A stretch of DNA of 64,000 nt. It comes from Terfezia claveryi (lineage: Eukaryota; Ascomycota; Pezizomycetes; Pezizales; Pezizaceae). Made by a program: the position numbers and the translations under genes. Below are positions 14,301-45,178 of the stretch, piece after piece; the first letter of the stretch is position 1; each line of letters starts with the position of its first letter. The stretch covers positions 434,001 to 498,000 of the forward strand of contig WHUX01000022.1 of NCBI GenBank assembly GCA_015179025.1. Direction: 5' to 3'. The notes under the pieces were generated by a model. It was not told the DNA's origin. It did no database searches and saw only the letters and a program-made list of their open reading frames with translations.

Positions 14301-15876
14301 GGCAAGTTAATCTGCCAGCAGAAGATTTAAATACAAATAAGAAAAAAAAAAAAAAAAAAGGAATTAAGAAATAAGACAAAGGAGACTCGTGAGCGGGACC
14401 CCCGTGCTGTCATTAACCGGCACTGCAGGATGGGCCTGAGGGCCCTGACTGGGGTCCCGGCGACTAATTGGAATCCCCCTCTTCCCCCCTAGTTTGCATT
14501 ATCTGAACAGGCTGTGAATCTGGCTGAAGAAGGCCTCCGTAGCCTCATATGTCTCCTCCCCTTCTTTTCTCACAGTCCGGCTTGTCCAGCTCTTCCCACG
14601 TCTTTTTGTCGCCAAATAGTAGGGTTCTCTCTCTCTCTAGCCTAGGGCACTCGAAGGTGATATGCTGACCGTCTTTCACTGGGTATCCACAAGCGCATTC
14701 TGTGTTTTCCGCTTTGCCTATGTGGTGTAGCCAGCTCTTTTGGGGCCCCCGGTCACTCCGCATCCAGGTGAAGGCGGAGAAGGCTTGTCTATTCCAGTTG
14801 GCTACGTTGTGTGTACCGTATCCCGCCTTTGTTCTAGCCCTCTTCCTTATCGCTTTTGAGGCTGCGCGTAGCCCCCCTTCTGTGACTGTGCGGGGTGACC
14901 CCCTCAAGTGGCCTAATATCGACTGGAAAGTTGCATGGCTGTCTGCCTTCTCATTGCCTTCGATGCCTACATGGCCCCTGACCCAGGCGATCCTGATGTC
15001 TGTGTGGTTGCGGTCGATTGCAAGTGCCTTAAATCTTGCCTCGATGCCTGTCCGGGGAGGTGCCCCTCTGCTCATGTTTAAGATGACCTGTATGGCAGCT
15101 CGAGAGTCGGATAAGATGGCTAGCATCTCGGCGTCCTCGGTCTCGATCGCCAGGGTGGCTGCGTGGAGCTCGCTGTCAGCAACTGTGGCCAGGTCCTACC
15201 AGGTCCCCCGAGTAGTCCCCGTAAGTGTTTTCCCGGTTTTCCCGGATTCCTCCTCTGCTGCCTCCGCTTCTCCAGTCCATTGAGTGTACTGCGCTGGCTA
15301 CCCCTTCTTCGCGTCCGGTACCATCTGTGAAGCAGACCCGCCACCCCTCGTCCAGAATACCCGCTATCGATCCCGCCCAGTATCCCAAGGATTTTGATCT
15401 CTCGTCGGATGGCTCCATGATAGGCTCGTGACTGACCGCAAAGACTCGAGTGTCTTCTCTGTTGCCGTACGAAAGTTCCGCTGCATTGTCGGCTGCCGAT
15501 AGATGGAATGCTTCCGTGATTGGGCTGTCTCTCTGTAGGTGTGGGTTGAACCATCGTACCAGGTGGCATAACCCGGAGCAGGGGGTGCTTCCAAGAAGGC
15601 CCTGATCTCGGGGTCCCTTGTCCGTATTGCTCTGCCAGCCCATGACCTTGAAACGTCGTCGAGCTTTTCCGTGAGAGGTTCTATGTTAGCAATATACCCT
15701 AGCTTCTTGTGGCTGCTGCCATGGTACCCCTCCGTGATCTTCCTAAGAGCTAGTCTTCTGAAGGGTTCGAATTTGCTTGCCATTAATGGGAGGTTGAATA
15801 GCTCTGCGCCCCATGTAAAGATCGGTCTGATGGCCCCATTGTTGTTGTCGTGATCTTGGGGCTCTCCCCGTTTTGG
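14301..15876 (-). mobile_element. Tad1-like LINE, 5'-truncated 3' portion
   Basis: Minus-strand frames encode the end of a non-LTR ORF2: a connection segment (KITEGYHGSSHKKLGYI, about 15.7 kb), an RNase H domain (DSRAA, then WVRGHVGIEGNEKAD, near 15.0-15.1 kb) and a C-terminal zinc finger with the CACGYPVKDGQHITFEC pattern (near 14.7 kb). Frame shifts occur around 15.1-15.6 kb. The 3' UTR-like part shares ggcaagttaatctgcca and gctgtcattaac with the nested LINE at 50.3-50.8 kb. No reverse-transcriptase core is present. Its 5' side abuts the 9.1-kb transposon, which duplicated the CGTTCTGGT target at this edge. Confidence 0.75.
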
Positions 15877-15885
15877 CGTTCTGGT

Positions 15886-16005
15886 TAGTCTGGTTGGCAC
15901 AAGCCCCTCGTAGAGGGTCTGGAACAAAACCTTTTTTTTTACTATGTACCCTAGTGGCATACTGGTAGCTTGGCATACGACACATAGTAAATATGAACTG
16001 TTTAT
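15886..16005 (+). repeat. Left terminal inverted repeat, 120 bp
   Basis: Starts TAGTCTGGTTGGCAC and includes a T9 run and a GTAGAGGGTCTGG segment. It is the reverse complement of 24,881-25,000. Divergence begins immediately inside position 16,005. ORF1 starts 133 bp further in, so the repeat may supply its promoter. Confidence 0.95.
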
Positions 16006-16138
16006 TATCAGACAACAACCACCAAACAAAATCATAGCAAACCTATAGTAATAAACCAAGCCTTCCGTCTTCCAATCTTTCGCCCCTACGTTCCCCACAA
16101 ACATACGACATCCTTGATTCAGTTTATTGTGATATCTC

Positions 16139-18337
16139 ATGCCTCGCAAGAAAGCAGCGAGCCGACCTGTCGCAAATTCAGATTCGCTCATTGACGATTC
16201 GGAGATCATGACTTCTACTCCTACAAAGACACCGAAGGGGAGAGGAAGGGCTGTTGTTTCTATAACTCCTGACACCCCAACCCCCACAAGGGCAATTCGG
16301 TATAAGCGGAAGTCACAACAAGAAGAAGAGGAAGATACCGAAGCGGCAGACAAGAGTTTGGAATGTGTGGGAATCAGTGAAGACTTGAGCGATGGTGAGG
16401 TTTTCCCGGTGGAACAAACTCCGAGGAAGACCAATCGAATGCCACCGAGTGCGCCTGTACCTCCTATGAAGAGAGCGAAGCGGGAGTCATTGCCTATATT
16501 GAAAGATATCTACTTCATCGAACCTCACTTCAAGGAATGGATTGAGGAGGCTGCGAAGTTAGGAGAAGTGGAATTAAATCATGCTATCAATTTCCAGGTT
16601 CGATTGATGTGCTGGAAAAAATTAGATCATACACCAAAGGACCGCAGTCGGGTAAGCCAGGCTGCTTGGGGTATACCAGAAAAGCAACTCGTGGATGCTG
16701 AAAAGGAGGAGTCCGTTAGTCATGAGCCATTGGGAATTGCGGTATTTAAACAATGGAGAAAGTACTACAAGGGTATCTTAGTGAAAATTCGAGAGAACAC
16801 AGAATGCCTTATGAAGATGTTCTTTGAATCTGATGGGGCAAAGGCGTGTTTGGATTCATTTTTCTTGCAGGTAGAAACTCGCGGGGCCAAGAGTATTAAT
16901 GACAATTATCCATGTTTAGAGCCAGAAGATATAGAGGCAATGTTCTTGAAGGGTATGTTTGGGGGCTACTCTGCTCGATTGCTGATCACTAACATATCAT
17001 ATTTAGGCAATCTTGAATTGGTTTCGGATTTCTGGAGTTTTCTGCTGGACGTTGTGGACGCAGACTTCATTTGCGTCAATCCGTTCTGGGCTGGGAGGTT
17101 TCAGAAAGCTACAGCGACTATCGTTGCGTGGATGCTTACGTTCCATTTGAAACTGGAAAATCCAAGACACAGAGCCGCTAATTTTGTTCCATTTACGGAG
17201 GTATACAAAGCAGAATTACTTTCTAATGCTATATTGAAAGCGGATGCGGTCTTGAAGGGGGTGGAGTCTACGGGGTTAGTTGATTGGCCCCAAATTAAGA
17301 AACCCGAATCTTGGTCCAAGAGGCGTTCTCCAGTCAACATCTATGGGGCCTTAAAGTATGCAGGATTGCGTAAGCAAGCTGCGCAAGCCGCGTTGGAAGA
17401 AGATATTGAAGAACAACTGGAAAGGCCTGAGATTCGTCTAACTGTTCCCGCCCAACCTAAGGGGGTGCCAGACCTTTTCTATGTGACGCCATTTAATGAT
17501 CGCTGCAAGTGGCTTATCGAGACCCACAAAGCAAGAGCCACTGCTCTTCGCAATTTGTCCATAGAAGCTGGCGAACGAATTAAGAACTTGGAAGAGGAGG
17601 CTGGGAGGATGGAAAACCGGATGGTTGATGAGTTCGCGTTCTACGAGAAAGCACAGAAAGGGAAAGAAATGGAACTGGCATGCGCTCGCTTTATGGCGGA
17701 TGCCAAAAAGATGTTTAGTGAGGCTTTGGAGAGGGAGAGAGAAGCTTGCATTGAAAAGAGAAAGATTGGAGATGATAAGCCAAGTGTATTGGAAATCTTG
17801 GGCAGTTTCGCCGCCTGGGTTGGTGTTATGAGAAAGGAAGGTGTGTTCTGATCTGGGATTGAAAATTACAACAATGGTGGTAGTGGCGGTGGTGCAGTTC
17901 AGAATGCATATTCACAGAATGCTTACGGCCAAGTAAATGTCTACGGGGCTACTGGTCAATTTCAACATGGAAATGCGGGTCCAGGTCCAGGGAATCATCC
18001 AGGTCCAGGGAATCAAGGTCATGGCTATCCGTTCAACTTCTATCAGCCGGGGATGATGTATCCTCCGCAGATGGTTTCAAATGGGTTTGGAATGCAAGGC
18101 AGGGCGATGAGCAGCGGAACAGGTCAAATAACTGCTGGGGTCCAACAAGTTGGCCATCTGGGAGCTGTTATGCAGGTGCAGCCAGTACAAGAGCTTCAGG
18201 CATCTGGGGCTTTGGGACAAGATGTTGTGAGAGCTAATTCAGTAGCCTCCGGAACGCCAACTGTTGAGTCTAGTCCTCAGCCTAGCAATAGCCCGAGTGC
18301 TACGGCTTCACCTACTCGAGCAGAAATCGCTGAGTAA
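16139..18337 (+). pseudogene. Transposon ORF1: 732-codon frame with one internal TGA
   Basis: ATG at 16139. The frame runs 570 codons to a TGA at 17849-17851 and then stays open in the same frame to a stop at 18335-18337, so the original product was probably about 731 aa. The N-terminus (1-130) is basic and acidic low-complexity sequence with nuclear-localisation-like KRAKRE. The middle (about 135-460) is ordered and unrecognised. About 470-550 is helical and charged (coiled-coil-like). The tail after the TGA is rich in G, N, Q, Y and P (GNAGPGPGNHPGPGN) and prion-like. A CGA-to-TGA transition would explain the stop; read-through or sequencing error are alternatives. The position next to the left TIR suggests an accessory transposition protein, by inference only. 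Confidence 0.7.
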
Positions 18338-18582
18338 ACCAGGCTCTTGAATTACGAGGGACTTGTGCCAAGTGGACTCTCTTGAATGATCTAATCTGGT
18401 TGGACCTAGATTGGGGTTGGGCTCACAAATATGTATTGGGTTAGTGTTTTGCTGCTTGTGTAATGGTGGGGTTACTTGTGTAATAGGTTTAAGGGTTTTC
18501 ATCTATGGTTTTTCGTTGGAGGTTGCTTCTAGTGTCAAGTGGACGGGTATGTACTAGGACAAATGGGTTATCTATGGAACCC

Positions 18583-18662
18583 AAGTAGTACGAGTAGTCT
18601 AGTTAAGTACGAGTAGTCTGGTTGGAAGTACGAGAGGGGCTTGTGCCAACGAGACGAGACTA
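18583..18662 (+). repeat. Stacked transposon footprints on one target
   Basis: The 9-mer AAGTACGAG occurs three times (18,586-18,594 with one mismatch; 18,605-18,613; 18,626-18,634). Between the copies lie TAGTCTAGTT and TAGTCTGGTTGG, both starts of the element's TIR. After the third copy a degenerate inner-TIR-to-end segment (aggggcttgtgccaa...agacta) runs to 18,662. This fits repeated visits to one target, each leaving a duplicated 9-mer. Confidence 0.75.
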
Positions 18663-18795
18663 CAACTTGGGCCTATGAGAAGATCAATTGAAAATAGTCT
18701 TGTACCATACTACTTACTTGTCTATCTTTTTACATATTACGTCCGCTGTACATCATGATGGAATTTGCTACCAGTTAGTACTGATTTTCCATTTG

Positions 18796-18825
18796 AAAAA
18801 CCGGGTAGTCTAGTTGAAAACTGGG
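18796..18825 (+). repeat. Transposon footprint, 11 bp, degenerate
   Basis: TAGTCTAGTTG (18,806-18,816) lies between AAAACCGGG and AAAACTGGG (18,797-18,805 and 18,817-18,825). The 9-bp flanks differ by one C/T transition, and the end motif carries one G/A change, so this scar is older than the perfect ones. Confidence 0.65.
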
Positions 18826-19870
18826 TAATAACAAGTGAGTTTAATGAAGCTAGAAACATTGAGACAAAGGAACTGTTCCTATTAAGGAGTACTATGATGT
18901 TTACCTTGCTCAGAATGATGGATATTTCGAATTCAATGACGGTTAGTATGTAATATGTTTTGTTGATTCGTAAGAGTAGTTTGACTAGGTGATATATGAT
19001 GCCTTCCATTACGAGGCCGGATGCCTTATATGGTAATTTTGTTGTATGAGGGAGCCTTGTTTGTTGATGGCGGGTGCAGTATGCCTTGTTTGTTGTTATC
19101 TGTTCCGTTCTGTTGACATATTAATCAATCAGTGGGAATTTGTATATATAACTCCGAACTCTCCTTGTATCACTCTCTAATACCTCATATCTACTTCCCA
19201 GGAATTTTACTCTTTGGACTGATCTTACTTTGGTCTCCATGCAATCCGTACCCTCCAATGTTTCTTCTGTGTGTCAGCCATGGGAGCTCACCAACGAATA
19301 TATGGCAGACAAAGCAAAGCTGGAAGCTATCACCCAAGGCCGGACTGGGCTTACTGCAAAACCATCTCAAACGAGGTTTGCTATGGCATTGTTAAATAAG
19401 AGGGATGTTACATGTGTAGCTGCAACTGGGTTTGGTAAAAGTTTGGCTTTCCAGATGGCAGCGTTCCTACTGGGAGGCTGTCGATTCGGTATCGTGATAA
19501 CTCCTATAGAAGCACTAGGAGAGGATCAGGTCGCTAGGTGCGCTCAGATTTTTCTGAGGGCGACTGTCTTAATCGAAGGAGATGTCGACCAAAATGCCAA
19601 AAAGATACAAGAGATCAGATTAGGGAAATATAACCTAGGTAGGTAGCGATGTTCACATTACTCCATGTATATGTATGTTCTGACTTGGGATAGTATATGT
19701 GTCTCCGGAGAAGCTTTTAGACAAAGACAGTTCATTACAACGATTGATCTTCAAAGGTTCAGAGCAGTTCAGAAGTCAAATTGGCTTTGTGGTTATAGAT
19801 GAATGCCATGTTGTCCCTCAATGGTATGTATTTACACTTTTCCAGGTGTAGCTTCGTTGCATTTTGGCCT

Positions 19871-20007
19871 TTCAAAAATTGGTAGATTCGTCGGAAGCTA
19901 CCAATTTGCCCCTTTCCCGCTTTCAAAAATTGGTAGATTCGTCGGAAGCTACCAATTTGCCCCTTTCCCACTCTCAAAAATTGGTAGCTTGGCAACGAAT
20001 CTACCAA
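19871..20007 (+). repeat. Hairpin-forming 51-bp tandem repeat in helicase intron 2
   Basis: Two nearly identical 51-bp units (19,871-19,921 and 19,922-19,972) and a partial third. Each has ATTGGTAG...CTACCAAT inverted arms around a TTCGTCGGAAG-type loop. They lie inside the 322-bp intron 2 (19,824-20,145), which is unusually long for this window. Confidence 0.75.
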
Positions 20008-21780
20008 TTTTCTCGCTTGTTTCGCAGCGAATTTTGAGAAATAAAGTACCAGTCTTGGACAGCGCACTCACTTGCCGTCTTCCAATGCGCTTTAGACTTC
20101 GTTCCTTGTCAATGTATTATGCTCGCTAACTTCATGAGTATCTAGGGGTAATGAATTCAGACCTGCGTTTGCCAAACTGGATACGCTTCGATATACACTG
20201 CCGAGGTCCCATTTGCAGCATGTACGGCGACAGCGAGTCCAGGGATGATGAGTAAGATCCGAGAGCATATAGGAATATCTAAAGAGGCCATCTCGATAAT
20301 CGAGGGTATAGATAGGCCTAATCTATACTTAGCTGTTAAGCAGATCGAGGGGTCTGGGATGATAGGAGCCAAAGACTTGGATTTTCTAATACAGCCAGGA
20401 ACAGGGGCACAAGAGTCTAATCGTCATGGAGCCGCTCCCCCTCAAAATTGGGAGAGAGGTTTTGACTATTCCAGAATTCCATTGACAATAGTATATGTAA
20501 ACAGCAAGTTGATTGCCCATGCAGTTGCAGGCCAGCTCAGGAGTCACCTCCCGGGAGAGTCTCATATCCGACAAAATTCCAATAAAGATGTCCAATGGGA
20601 TCTTGATGTTAGATCTGTTAGCGAAAAAGCTATAGCAGTTTACCATGCTACTATGTCAGCTACTAGCAAACGATATGTCCAACAAGATTGGAGGAGTGGG
20701 CAATGTAGAATCCTCGTTGCTACTTCGGCTTGGGGTATGGGGATTAATGACAGAGAGTAGAGAGAGTACTACAATGGCGGGTAGATGGCTTAGACAACTT
20801 GGATACCCTTTACCAGCACTTTGGACGATGTGCCAGGGATACTTCTATTCAGGGCATTTGCATATTATTTGCGGAAAAGGATTACTTTGGCCCAAGAAAT
20901 GGCTCTACTGATTCTAATCCTCGGAAAAGAGGCAACGATGGTGAGCCAAAGGATGATAATAATCGAAGAAACCGTATGGACGTAGCTTTGCATCGGTTTA
21001 TAAATACACCTACAGGAATCAAGTGTCGTAGGAAAATTGTCTTAGGAGTTTATGGTGACCAGAGTTATACACAATTAAACAACACCAGCTCTACGACCCC
21101 ATGCTGTGATAATTGTGGTACTCCAGATAAATCACAAGGTTAGTCCCAGGTGTATTCAATGCAGTTTTCCAGTTTCAGAATCCTTTGCATCCTGCATCTG
21201 CATTTCCGAAAGCCAGCATGGCTCTACGTTCTGTTGTCAAAACCTGCCTCATCACTTTACGCAAATCATTATTTGATGCGCTTCCACGCCCAAAACAACG
21301 ACTATTAACTGTGGAACACATATTGTCCACCGTACAGATTGAATCTCTTACCACCTACTGCAGGGGTATCCTATCCCAAGAGCACATCACCAAGATTCCC
21401 GGTTTCACAATCAATCCATCACATTTCGAAAAATACGGTAAATAGTACATGTCTATGCTTTTCTGGCCTCGTGGCTAATCTGGTCTACCTTAGGGGTGCA
21501 AATCTATACAACAATCCATAACACTATCCAAGTCCATGTGGAGCCGCATAATCAGCAACCCACTTCTTCAAACAGAATTCCCCGAGTCCATAGCAATAGC
21601 CAAGCACAATCATCCACTCACAATGCGCCCATCTCAGGCCCCGCCGGTACCAACTTAAATACCTTAGAGACTAACCTAACCGAAAGCTTTGAGGACAGAT
21701 TACCGCGGTTTAGGGCATACTATGAACGTTTCAGAGTACCAGAACTCAAAGCCTTTCTCAAACGAGTCCCTTTAGCACTC

Positions 21781-21813
21781 GACGGGAGAGTGCCAACCAG
21801 ACTAGACGGGAGA
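21781..21813 (+). repeat. In-frame transposon footprint in the SAP-like coding region
   Basis: GACGGGAGA (21,781-21,789), then GTGCCAACCAGACTA (21,790-21,804), then GACGGGAGA (21,805-21,813). The middle 15-mer is exactly the right terminus of the surrounding transposon family. The net insertion is 24 bp and adds eight codons (VPTRL-type) without breaking the frame. Confidence 0.9.
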
Positions 21814-22267
21814 AAGGCTCAGCTCATCACCGCATAATTGAATATGAAAAATCTAAATGCTCCACCAACCCCAGTTTTAACCTACCCGATAAGGAAAACA
21901 TACCTCCAAGGACCTCCGTACCAACCAGAACCCCCCAAAGACAAGTACCCTCTACTCCACAACGCCAGGATATCTCCGTTACACCAACACCCAGATGGCA
22001 ACACATCACAACACCGGGACCAGAATTTACCCCAGTGGCCATTAGAACCTCGCATCCTGCAACCCGAGTACCTAACCTCAATCAAGTTTCTAGAAACCTT
22101 TTTCCTAAGTCCAAGGAGTAAAGTATTACAATTCTTACATGATTATTATTATACCAGATAGCAGACATTTCTCTCTTCATGTCAATCTGTTTTTACGAAA
22201 TGTAACAACCCAGATATGTAATTACACACAATTAAAGTCATCATTTCATACACAGAAGCACACTTGA

Positions 22268-24840
22268 TTAGTCCCCTGAACCCAAATCCACTTCCATCAT
22301 ATCTCCCTCGTTGATACCCAACCCCCATTGTTGTACTTTCAATACTCTTGCACAACCAGGCGATCTAGCAATAAAGGAAGGCCACCACTTCCCATCCATT
22401 AACTTCACCAACCCAGCTTCCATCAAATCACGAACTATATGTCTTACTCCACCCCCGTTGCCCTCACCGTGAGATGACTCACATCTCCTTCCAGGCGAAT
22501 GAAAAACCCATTTCTTACTGAGTAAATCATCCAGCAAAGCATTCACATCAGCTGAGCAATCACCTTTAATATGTTTCCCCCCATGGCGTCTCAACCCCAG
22601 CGCTTTTCTCATATCATCTTTGATCTGCATAAAGTACACTATACAACGAGCGGTAACCTTCCTCATATAATCATCGAGATTTTCGGAAGACCCTGGTTAT
22701 ACAACTGCTTATACCCTCTCACCAACTCCTCCATGAATTCGTCTAGAGCAAGGAACTTCCCCGTCTTCCCCCAAGGATTTATTACCCAATTTGCTCGAAT
22801 AATCGATTGCAATTCCACACTCCATTCCGAAGCCATTCCGACCCTTATTTCCATCAGGCGTTACCATACTTCGAATGATTTGAGCCTAGAAACGTTAGTG
22901 CCAACCAGACTAAGAAACGTTAATTGCGAAGCTTAAAGTAAACACTGGGAATAAGATCACCTAGGAACTGCGGCCCCCACAATTGCAGGATATATTCCAT
23001 TGCGCCTACATCACCCATTCTCGTTGCTTTATAATAAGCACGAAATTCCATCTCCTGCCTTGCGAACAACAATATGTTTTCAAATATTTCATCTCTTTCT
23101 GCCTCCGGACGCCCTCGAGACAGTGGCACATAGCAATACTCCAGAAGCGCATCAACCTCTTCAACAACTAACACCCAGTCAATCTCTTTCCGCTTTACCC
23201 GTACTTGGAATTGTTCCCAATTCTCGCACCCCCCCTTGAACACCATCAACCCCCTCAAAACAGCCTCAAGACTATCGCGGGTGAAGTCAATGCAGTTCCA
23301 GTAATTTGACGCAGTCTCGTCAATATATTGGCGCCGCAGTTTTTTATTGAAGGCGAATAAACTCCCAGGCAATGACCCGTCCTTCACCCCTAAGTGCTGC
23401 TTCAACATGGCCTTTTTGAAATTCATCCCGATGTGAAAAGGCCCCAATAGAGCGGTCACCCCACTGAAATCCTCCCCAGGAACATCACTTTCTCTCAACT
23501 TCTGAATCTCCTCACCCTGTCTTCCAAGAGCTGATCACCACCACCAGAAACAACCCCTTTGCACGTTCCTCCTTGCTATACCCAACCTCGTGGAACCCAC
23601 AGTCTATACCATCCAGATTGCCTTGCGCAGAAGCTTGCTCAGATCTCATCAGTCCCAATGGGAAAATAGCTTCCTTTGCAGCATGCATACGCTCCACCAC
23701 TAGCAACTTATATATATTCCCATTGGTAGCCGGCAGCTGGTCACCAATGTCCTGCTGCAAAATCGAAAACAATTGGAACTTTCGGAAGGAACTCATGTAA
23801 TTCAAAGCTTCTTCTATTGGCCCCAAATTGGCCGGATCCAAGTTAACTCTGCCACCGATGACTTTCCATGCCTTTGGAATTGAACGCATCCCGGAGAATT
23901 CCAGACCCCTGACTGGACATGCAAAACCCCCTGTGCTATTATCCATCAGGGATTGCCTGGTACTGCATCCATCTCGAATGCCCACCATTTGATTGACATT
24001 ATCCAGGACGATCTTCATTGGTCTTTGTTTGGCCAAAGCGCTCATTTCTGATTTCACAACTTCCGCCATTTGTTTCATGCACTGATTCAGGTGTACATAT
24101 GAGCAGCACACCCCCAATCCTTGTAAGACTTCTAACCCAGACTTGGGAATATGATTCGCATATAAGAACGCTCCAATCATGGTCTGGTAAGCATTCACTT
24201 TTTGGTTGCGATTATTGACCAATCCCAATATGGCGCTCAGTACTACCATTGGCGTCTTAGATTTTGCAACCTCTCCAACCCCTACTAATTCACAAACCTT
24301 CCATAGATTTGGTGCTTTGTCTTTCACGTAGACAACCATCTCATCCAAACCCCCTGTAATCCGACCATTCAACGCCCTGGCCTGGTTCAAGTTGGCACCC
24401 CGTTCCCCAACGTAACATAAGATAGAGCCTTGTTCTCTCATTAACTCCTCAACCTCTGTACTCAGATAAGCATGGAATTGGGAAATGATTAATTGTTCCA
24501 ATCTTCCCTCTTCCAATCCTAACACTATTGGCATCCATAGTTCAATCATCTCTCTAGCACCTCCTAACATAAAACTGTCGCGCTTCGTTTTTAAGGCAGC
24601 GTTCTCAGACCAGGCTCTCAGGAAACCTCGCATACTCCCAAAGCTTTCCTCAATTGAACTTTGAATAGCCAACAATTTAGGCGTGGCCTGTTCCTCAGCT
24701 TGAACAGTTCTCCAGTGTTTTGCAGCTAAGTTCGGAACTTGTTTCCGTGGTCTACCTCTGGTTTCAATTCGTTGGCCATCACGGCCATATTGGGCCTTGC
24801 TAGGCTTCTTTTTAGCCGACTTGTTTCGATGTTCCGACAT
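22268..24840 (-). pseudogene. DUF6589-like putative transposase of the 9.1-kb element, frame-broken
   Basis: ATG at 24840, just inside the right TIR. A basic N-terminus (KSAKKKPSK, RGRPRK) leads to a long ordered region. Family-type signatures follow in order: IVLDNVN (Asp codon 280, 24,003-24,001), a MDNSTGGF segment, GDQL-type sequence near 23.53 kb, LGPFHIGMNF (near 23.43 kb), and WGKTGKFLALDEFMEELVRGYKQ (near 22.7-22.8 kb). I read these as the DUF6589 family, which I believe carries an RNase-H-like transposase fold; both points need a profile search. The frame changes near 23.55-23.49, 22.93-22.85 and 22.66 kb, so the protein is not continuous unless introns remove some breaks. A TIR-end footprint lies at 22,888-22,922. 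Confidence 0.7.
22888..22922. repeat. Transposon footprint with 10-bp direct repeats
   Basis: AGAAACGTTA (22,888-22,897), GTGCCAACCAGACTA (22,898-22,912), AGAAACGTTA (22,913-22,922). The flanks match over 10 bp rather than 9. It lies within the transposase gene of the 9.1-kb element, in or beside a likely intron. Confidence 0.85.
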
Positions 24841-24880
24841 GAATATGAATGGTTGTTGATGTTTACGGGGATATACGTTG

Positions 24881-25000
24881 ATAAACAGTTCATATTTACT
24901 ATGTGTCGTATGCCAAGCTACCAGTATGCCACTAGGGTACATAGTAAAAAAAAAGGTTTTGTTCCAGACCCTCTACGAGGGGCTTGTGCCAACCAGACTA
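24881..25000 (-). repeat. Right terminal inverted repeat, 120 bp
   Basis: Exact reverse complement of 15,886-16,005, ending GTGCCAACCAGACTA. The transposase start codon is 41 bp inside it. The target duplicate CGTTCTGGT follows at 25,001-25,009. Confidence 0.95.
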
Positions 25001-25557
25001 CGTTCTGGTCGCTGGAGCTCCAGCCTAAAGGGGGGTTAGTGTCACAACCGTGTGTTTGTAGAGTCGGACAGAACCCTGCCCGACTCTCGTTGTTGCCCAT
25101 TGTTGTGTCAAGCGTTCTCTGGGAGACTCGGACAACCCTATTGTCTGAGTCTCGCCATTGTTGTTGTTGTCATTCGCTATCTCGTTGTCAGGCACTAAGG
25201 TGTCGGCCTTGGCTCTCAGTATCTAGTTTTTGCTCTCTAAGACTCGAGCGAAGTCTTGTATCGCTGGTTACTTTTCTTGGGAAGAGAGGTTTTGCATAGC
25301 AACACAACTTTATCCAGTCTAAATTCCAAAGGCTGCGCCTGGTAGCGAGGAAGCATGACAGCGAGCCTGGCGACATCTTCTACAGAAGCATAGTAGTGAG
25401 CGAGCATGGCAGTAGGTATTGTAGTGATATAAAATTGGATAACTTACCTAACTTACTTGTGGCAGCAAGCCCGGAAGTAACGTCTGAACCTCCGCAACCA
25501 TTGAAGGAAGCCCGACGCGACTCTATTTCATTCTTCTGAGTCTATATCGGAAGACAA

Positions 25558-37938: not shown

Positions 37939-38040
37939 GTGCCAACCAGACTAACCGGACTATAGGTATTCTATAGTCTGGTTGGCACGTATTCTAGTCT
38001 GGTTGGCACAAGCCCCTCGCAAGTGACAGGTATTCTTAGA
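37939..38040. repeat. Cluster of three transposon ends sharing one target word
   Basis: GTGCCAACCAGACTA (37,939-37,953), TAGTCTGGTTGGCAC (37,974-37,988) and TAGTCTGGTTGGCACAAGCCCCTCG (from 37,995) lie within 100 bp. GGTATTCTA precedes the second end, GTATTC separates the second from the third, and GGTATTCTT follows at about 38,029. This reads as two successive insertions or excisions at one GGTATTCT target. Confidence 0.7.
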
Positions 38041-43063: not shown

Positions 43064-44529
43064 TTACATATTCTGCCCCGAAATTGCATAGCGTGTATTG
43101 GTTTTTAACGTAGCAATATCACTAAAATAATTATTACAAGTGATAGGCGCTAAGAGTCTGGTCACGAGAGCACCACCAGTGCTACTTCTATTGAAGCAAT
43201 CAACAATGCTTATTTCTTGGTTAATCGTGCTTACTAATTCAATTAAGAAAGCTTGTGAAATTTCAGAAGGCCGAGCCAGTAGCAGATACATCACAAGGTT
43301 GATAAAACAATGACACAAGGTACGAAAAGTACATGATTCTCTAAACATATCCACAGGCAAAAATCGGCATACATTATCCTTCTTGACGTAGGGCAATTGC
43401 CTGCAAAAGATCTTCTGTGTCTGCCAATCTCCATGCTGCTTCATCATCGGAATCATGTTCATCTTCTGTTGCCTTAGTAGCTCCTGTAAGGTAATATTAG
43501 TGATCCATTGTAGTCTGGTTAGATCCATTGACGAGCAATCGTGTCCAGGAGTGGTTTACCTATCACGCCCCGAACCCAGGGTATTGTTGAGCGCCGTTTC
43601 TCCCATGTCTTAACATCTTCGAGAGTCTTACCGACAAACCTCCGTCCCTGAAAGTCTATACTGAACTCGTAAATTCCCTCTCGGCAATAGATGATGTAGG
43701 TTTGGTTGCAGCGATCGTACAGGTACTGATGATTGGGGATCGCTGTTAACTCGTGGTCCTCAGTAATACTGTCTAGTATGTCCTCATCTAGATCCAAAGG
43801 TCCATAATCTTGGTAGGCTCTCGCTAATATCCTCGATGTCTGGACATCGAAAGCTGAAGTGGTATCATCCTGTCGGCCACTGGTGATAGCATACCCAGAT
43901 CCCAAATTGTCATCCCACTCTCCTCCAGGTTCGCAAAACATCGCTGACAATTTGGGCAGCCTACTTGCTGCTCCTTCGCTTGATTCATGGTAATTTCTTT
44001 CACAGATAACAGGTGGTACCTGCACCTGTACTGTGAAGAGATCGCTAGTCCTATTGGCTCCGCACAATCCCCGTGCTCCTGGAATCTCACTAACGGCCCA
44101 CGTCTGGCCTCGGGTATTGCTTTTATACGGCGTATCCACCTGGGGATTCCCGGTACATTGGCCTTCAGTAAGAGAGTTACATGTCCTTGTGTTTTGGGCG
44201 CTAATTGGAAGATGTGAGGCAGGTTCCGATTGGCAAAGTGCGACCGCCTTTTCCTCCATACATCTCTCTGGAGGTGGGATGGAAGTGTCGCTTGTGGCTT
44301 CGACTTCGTGCAAGCTATGACGAGCAAGGTCCTCCCTGTGTCTGTGAGACCCAAGACTCCACAAACCACTGCTGGCCTCCGTCGCTTGGCAATTGTTAGA
44401 ATGACAATCTTTGCCAGACGAACAACTGCATTCAGCCAAACTATGGCATGGCCCGTAATTGTGTCCGAAGGTGGTGGTCCTATTGTTGCAGACAAAATTA
44501 TGGTTATGGCACAATGTATTGTCACGCAT
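43064..44529 (-). pseudogene. Unknown gene interrupted by a transposon footprint
   Basis: A frame from ATG 44529 runs about 336 codons to a stop at 43,519 (last residues ARQWI). Its last 120 residues look well conserved in style (CREGIYEFSIDFQGRRFVGK). The stop codon is supplied by the 11-bp TIR remnant at 43,511-43,521. Without the 20-bp scar the frame would continue in register (QWITNITLQELL) into the frame running to 43,064. The N-terminal 40 residues are Cys/His-rich and may be out of the true reading frame or upstream of the true start. Another long frame on the same strand (44,720-43,824) is judged a shadow. No domain recognised. Confidence 0.55.
43502..43530. repeat. Transposon footprint disrupting a coding frame
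   Basis: GATCCATTG (43,502-43,510), TAGTCTGGTTA (43,511-43,521), GATCCATTG (43,522-43,530). Perfect 9-bp direct repeats surround the element's terminal 10 bp plus A. The net insertion of 20 bp shifts the host frame and adds a stop codon on the minus strand. Confidence 0.9.
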
Positions 44530-45145: not shown

Positions 45146-45178
45146 GATTCATGGTAGTCTGGTTGGCACGATTCATGG
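45146..45178. repeat. Transposon footprint, 15-bp end, perfect 9-bp repeats
   Basis: GATTCATGG (45,146-45,154), TAGTCTGGTTGGCAC (45,155-45,169), GATTCATGG (45,170-45,178). The middle is exactly the left terminal 15 bp of the 9.1-kb transposon. Non-coding context. Confidence 0.9.

Follow-up and report, generated by a model that had tools for sequence, protein, structure and literature searches.

The 64,000-nucleotide stretch of DNA analyzed here (the window) comes from the desert truffle Terfezia claveryi and carries a complete transposon of 9,115 bp. As an earlier note on this DNA had proposed from the sequence, the element has identical 120-bp terminal inverted repeats (TIRs), a perfect 9-bp target duplication, CGTTCTGGT, and three genes (Table 1). 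The layout that it had called convergent is also seen, with ORF1 and the helicase gene on the plus strand, the DUF6589 gene on the minus strand, and the latter two converging. The left and right TIRs are 100% complementary over 120 nt. At least 43 genome matches to the TIR were obtained (40 of 55 candidates scored), and full coverage of the 120 bases is confined to two, both from this element. The identical repeats and perfect duplication suggest a recent arrival. Among paralogs of its left flank in the same genome, none offered a clean preinsertion site for the 9.1-kb element. This flank (14,600-15,885) is a repeat with at least 47 genome matches (40 of 207 candidates scored); its best other copy, on contig C623 (94%), was rejected as an empty site because the homology ends 25 bp before the insertion point.

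Table 1. Features of the transposon and short inserts in the window
Feature	Position	Strand	Remarks
Transposon proper	15,886-25,000		9,115 bp
Left target duplication CGTTCTGGT	15,877-15,885	unstranded	Sequence
Right target duplication CGTTCTGGT	25,001-25,009	unstranded	Sequence
Left TIR, 120 bp	15,886-16,005	+	Starts TAGTCTGGTTGGCAC; possible hairpin CCCTC-GTA-GAGGG, bases 20-32
Right TIR, 120 bp	24,881-25,000	-	Same as left
ORF1	16,139-18,337	+	NCBI model P0013, 695 aa; no Pfam family
RecQ-family helicase gene, several exons	19,239-22,121 (approximate at both ends)	+	Frame interrupted near 20,750
DUF6589 gene	22,268-24,840	-	P0001, 616 aa, plus another piece on the 3' side whose DUF6589 match is weak; break in the frame near 23,530
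26-bp diverged end-like insert (18,353-18,378) between two CTCTTGAAT	18,344-18,387	-	Read from the sequence
Two consecutive scars, 10 and 12 bp, among three (A)AGTACGAG	18,587-18,634	+	In the first copy, one base is missing or mismatched
11-bp scar TAGTCTAGTTG between AAAACCGGG and AAAACTGGG, one mismatch	18,797-18,825	+	Read from the sequence
15-bp scar (21,790-21,804) between two perfect GACGGGAGA	21,781-21,813	-	Inside an open reading frame in the helicase gene region; 24 bp, frame kept
15-bp scar (22,898-22,912) between two perfect AGAAACGTTA	22,888-22,922	-	
11-bp scar between two GATCCATTG	43,502-43,530	+	Outside the element
15-bp scar between two perfect GATTCATGG	45,146-45,178	+	Outside the element

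The first gene, ORF1, had been described as matching nothing known, and it is indeed unlike any named family: it gave no Pfam match under an E value of 0.1 and no NCBIfam match, a protein search returned its own gene alone among the matches listed, and its relatives lie in sister elements. The NCBI model removes its in-frame TGA at 17,849 by splicing. The proposed RecQ-type helicase has Pfam DEAD (3.5e-10) and Helicase_C (1e-5) domains, with the RecQ zinc domain under its cut-off, and the top NCBIfam match of both helicase pieces is the RecQ family TIGR00614, under the whole-protein cut-off of that model. Between exons of the helicase gene, at 19,869-20,011, lies a tandem 51-bp unit with a palindromic core.

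The third gene had been recognized as a DUF6589-like putative transposase, and Pfam agrees, with an E value of 3e-21 for DUF6589 in the exon 22,923-23,534; there are three matching pieces in all, one of them above the cut-off. The T. claveryi protein P0001 in NCBI is 100% identical to this exon over 93% of the query. One motif assignment did not hold: the GDQL box pointed out earlier (in IGDQLPATNG) belongs to a variable stretch, and the conserved GGDQLL of the relatives lies elsewhere, at the position of the frame break near 23,530. The conserved blocks among the relatives include LDNVN, GGDQLL, LGPLHTLMN, and ENILLF, which may hold a catalytic triad. Both frame breaks, near 20,750 and 23,530, were judged against relatives. 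Since the helicase and DUF6589 frames appear broken, this copy probably lacks autonomy, unless small assembly errors are to blame at these points. Pfam scans of P0001, P0003, P0006, and P0010 found DUF6589 matches only and no THAP domain. The AlphaFold model of the homologue P0006 (12 sequences) had a mean pLDDT of 48.9, and a PDB sequence search with alignment A3 gave no match up to an E value of 1.

We searched the genome for relatives of the DUF6589 and ORF1 genes, and matches to both were found inside two sister elements, C95 and C235. C95 has 110-bp repeats (95%) and a perfect 9-bp duplication, ATGGAATGC; C235 has 141-bp repeats (98%) and 9-bp duplications with one mismatch. The ORF1 relatives show 51% (C95), 31% (C235), and 28% (C656) identity, and a helicase piece lies near the one at C656, which also counts as a sister element. 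Pfam DUF6589 matches occur at 43 places on 22 contigs, 30 of them with stops within the match, some perhaps in introns, and in none of 14 control genomes. A profile of this and the two sister DUF6589 copies found at least 12 proteins (this one included; 7,994 candidates scored), with named relatives in Kalaharituber pfeilii and Tirmania nivea.

Six short end-like inserts, each between duplications, lie inside the 9,115-bp element, and two more lie elsewhere in the window (Table 1). We call such inserts scars, after the reading argued for below. For the first 15 bases of the element end the genome holds 2,885 copies (reversed control, 0), and for the first 10 bases it holds 7,569 (control, 161). 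The intact-end pattern occurs at 15 places, against 2,885 exact 15-base ends, and it does not capture ends that differ in sequence, for example L112 and L111 with their other hairpins. Across the genome, 196 ends extend as far as GAGG at the base of the hairpin, and 15 of them run on into GTCT; C379, one of the 15, is in fact a scar, with GTCT as the start of its duplication.

We sampled 100 places with the 15-mer, those listed on contigs C1 and C2, all of which were fetched. A site was scored as duplicated when its upstream 9-mer was repeated with at most one mismatch within 60 bases, and in the control the upstream 9-mers were swapped between sites. A short insert flanked by a 9-bp duplication was directly observed at 50 of the 100 sites (swap control, 1.3%; random places, 339/9,451). 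With the 76 plus-strand 10-mers listed on C1, a sample that overlaps the first and in which one or two hits may be motif self-matches, 35 had duplications (control, 0.96%). The duplication of exact 15-base scars was 9 bp long in 17, 8 bp in 5, and 10 bp in 1. One candidate scar, L147, proved to be the motif within a repeat. The earlier note had held that end copies lacking the genes as a rule would speak against the transposon. Literally, this is what we find (2,885 against 15), but half of the sampled copies are stubs with target duplications and therefore resemble scars more than miniature elements; the other half, without a duplication, may reflect decay or other origins. At 30 loci examined for miniature elements, each with at most 1.4 kb of sequence downstream and one best duplication match shown per locus, no inverted end was seen before duplications more than 60 bases away, which were present at L011 and L026 only. 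Extrapolated from the samples, scars are probably present at well over a thousand places in the genome.

The inserts fall into discrete length classes, which were observed directly in both samples. In the 15-mer sample, with a two-ended scar counted once per end, 20 of the 50 inserts were 14-15 bases long, 28 were 25-36, 2 were longer, and none was 16-24; under a flat spread from 8 to 36, an empty gap of this kind has a probability of 2e-8, a rough figure. The 10-mer sample likewise had 16 sites with 7-15 bases, 19 with 25-40, and none with 16-24. Lengths within the gap were seen outside the two samples, namely 24 (L261 and L181), 18 (L225), and 16 (L165), and in a mixed set of 55 there was one insert of 16 and one of 20.

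The ends of the longer stubs are clustered. Among sites of the AAGCCCCTCGTAGAGG group, 14/22 end at base 31 (12/20 without duplicates), three at 30, and one at 32; these sites were chosen by BLAST length, so that the lower edge of the 31-nt peak is biased. For the AACACCCTCC group the counts cover 28 of the first 30 places in list order, the remaining two having already been fetched as two-ended scars; 22 of the 28 have duplications, and 7 end at 29, the loop end, and 5 at 32-34. These two positions fit the loop end and base of the predicted hairpin. This hairpin appears to recur in element-type ends with arms that differ but match each other (ACCCTCC/GGAGGGT, GACCCTC/GAGGGTC, and ACCTCT/AGAGGT), and it is possible in six of the seven such ends listed, the exception being L007. 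Two-ended palindromic scars, defined as exact 15-mers with at most 30 bases between them, were found at 46 places. Duplications flank 20 of the 40 that were fetched, or 18 of 38 after two duplicate pairs are dropped, and one of the 46 (L030) is exactly 15 + 15.

One exact empty site was observed directly: L230, a paralog of the L017 scar locus, matches on both sides and lacks exactly the 15 bases and one 9-base duplication (24 in total). The scar L020 lies in a repeat of which 19 paralogs were fetched, some of them near-identical and hence not independent. The target is empty in L218, L219, and L228, for example; it holds a 7-base stub in L224 and 11-12-base stubs in L223, L225, and L232; and L227 and L234 have a partial duplication alone. 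Such a mixture of empty targets, differing stubs, and partial duplications is expected of independent excisions. The other fetched scar loci yielded no useful empty site, and among the sites examined we saw none at which one allele carries the element and another the scar. For the scar at 22,898, C95 was considered as the unoccupied counterpart and set aside, as a whole stretch of about 66 bp around the scar is absent from it.

What surprised us most was the scale and discreteness of these short inserts. The cut model below is our inference. We think it probable that they are excision scars of a cut-and-paste family with a DUF6589 transposase, a RecQ-like helicase, and ORF1, and that the family cuts in two modes. 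On departure, the transposase would free the 3' strand of the element exactly at its edge, and the other, nontransferred strand would be cut inside the element, about 15 nt in. The longer stub class needs a second cut, guided by the hairpin, which would fall at the hairpin loop or base, about 25-34 nt in. The donor site would thus retain a short single-stranded tail of the element end, and end joining would mostly keep one tail and sometimes both, giving target copy, end stub, and target copy; one 15-nt tail kept would leave 15 bases, and both would leave 30. Several rounds of this, in part at one and the same target, would have left the scars, with about 22 loci with DUF6589 matches remaining. 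The cut positions, the strand polarity, the roles of hairpin and helicase, and DUF6589 as the catalyst are what we infer, and that the RecQ helicase opens the element end is a guess. A fuller scheme is rather doubtful as a whole: the transposase and its own RecQ helicase would unwind the end, the conserved hairpin of the freed strand would set the cut and so the two scar lengths, the element would often return to the same 9-bp target, and the scars would record the cutting chemistry of a transposase superfamily not yet characterized and would repeatedly insert short in-frame peptides into genes.

The main rival to excision is abortive integration, in which the ends are joined to a target with a 9-bp stagger and the element is cut away before repair ends, so that the scar marks a failed arrival. 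The great excess of scars over elements would suit it, and so would targets with three or more duplications and several stubs, as repeated tries would leave. Of 171 records, 22 had a third copy of the duplication within 60 bases (control, 2.2%); several of the 22 are one site on both strands, or tandem duplications, leaving about 10 separate cases, among them window positions 18,587-18,634, L181, L174, L092, L213, and L225. Such copies may come either from an element returning to its own site or from stubs added in stutters. The presence of different stubs and partial duplications at one target across paralogs is easier to understand if an inherited whole element left independently, and we regard failed arrival as unlikely, although nothing separates the two firmly.

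It seems far less likely still that the short inserts are tiny mobile units moved in trans, as solo ends or as palindromes of 30-50 bp. Units of this kind would have discrete lengths, and the palindromic two-ended forms resemble them, but the single stubs are one-ended, so that a two-ended transposase should not move them, and stub length varies at one target. A different question is whether the two length classes stem from element lineages with different cut positions, which would be compatible with excision. Several end types exist, and the lineage behind a 15-bp scar cannot be read from it; on the other side, the element-type ends share their first 15 bases within one mismatch, and six of the seven listed could form the hairpin. 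We consider separate lineages a possibility to be taken seriously, if not the likelier one.

AcademH, which the earlier note had brought up, is our closest lead to a named relative, by the description of its duplication length and helicase. We know of no ORF1 of this kind in AcademH. These elements are described as having 9-10-bp target duplications and an encoded helicase (PMC10045372) and as low-copy elements of Ascomycota among others (PMC10799480). The duplications of 9 bp here and in C95, and of 9 bp with one mismatch in C235, agree with this, as does a helicase within the element, here with RecQ-family domains and compared with that of AcademH by description only. In titles and abstract openings of the papers surveyed, a scope that does not include the original AcademH description, we found no report of such scars, and the survey turned up no paper on DUF6589.

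P elements make 8-bp target duplications, and stubs of their ends stay at the donor site. Their staggered cut lies well inside the end and is described as leaving a 17-nt 3' extension (PMC10983969); the scar lengths here fit a cut of the P element/THAP9 kind, as far as sequence can tell. Unlike P elements and THAP9, the family here has a 9-bp duplication, no THAP domain in the Pfam scans, and an encoded helicase, and it would have two cut positions, the second stub class ending at the hairpin, whereas P elements have one. Zisupton (KDZ) and Plavaka are fungal DNA transposons, often large. Their target duplications are given as 8 bp and 2-3 bp, respectively (PMC12730594), in contrast to the 9 bp of the element here and of C95 and C235.

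If excision is the correct reading and the sampled half holds genome-wide, the desert truffle would carry more than 1,000 natural excision products of an unstudied transposase. Cut positions, joining choices, and target reuse would become measurable, and the role of a transposon-borne helicase would become testable. Each scar adds a short insert to the sequence struck, and the 15-base class adds 24 bp and hence stays in frame.

Short inserts flanked by duplications exist for a related end type too, TAGTCTGGTTGCACTACCCC (L115, L118, L122, and L125), so more than one family is involved. Four contig pairs have identical scars and flanks, L154/L179 (C3/C408), L182/L189 (C615/C773), L237/L246 (C692/C73), and L238/L248 (C662/C46), and the assembly therefore contains duplicate or allelic contigs. 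At 37,939-38,030 of the window, three exact 15-base ends form a cluster in which both orientations are present, and near copies of GGTATTC lie between them.
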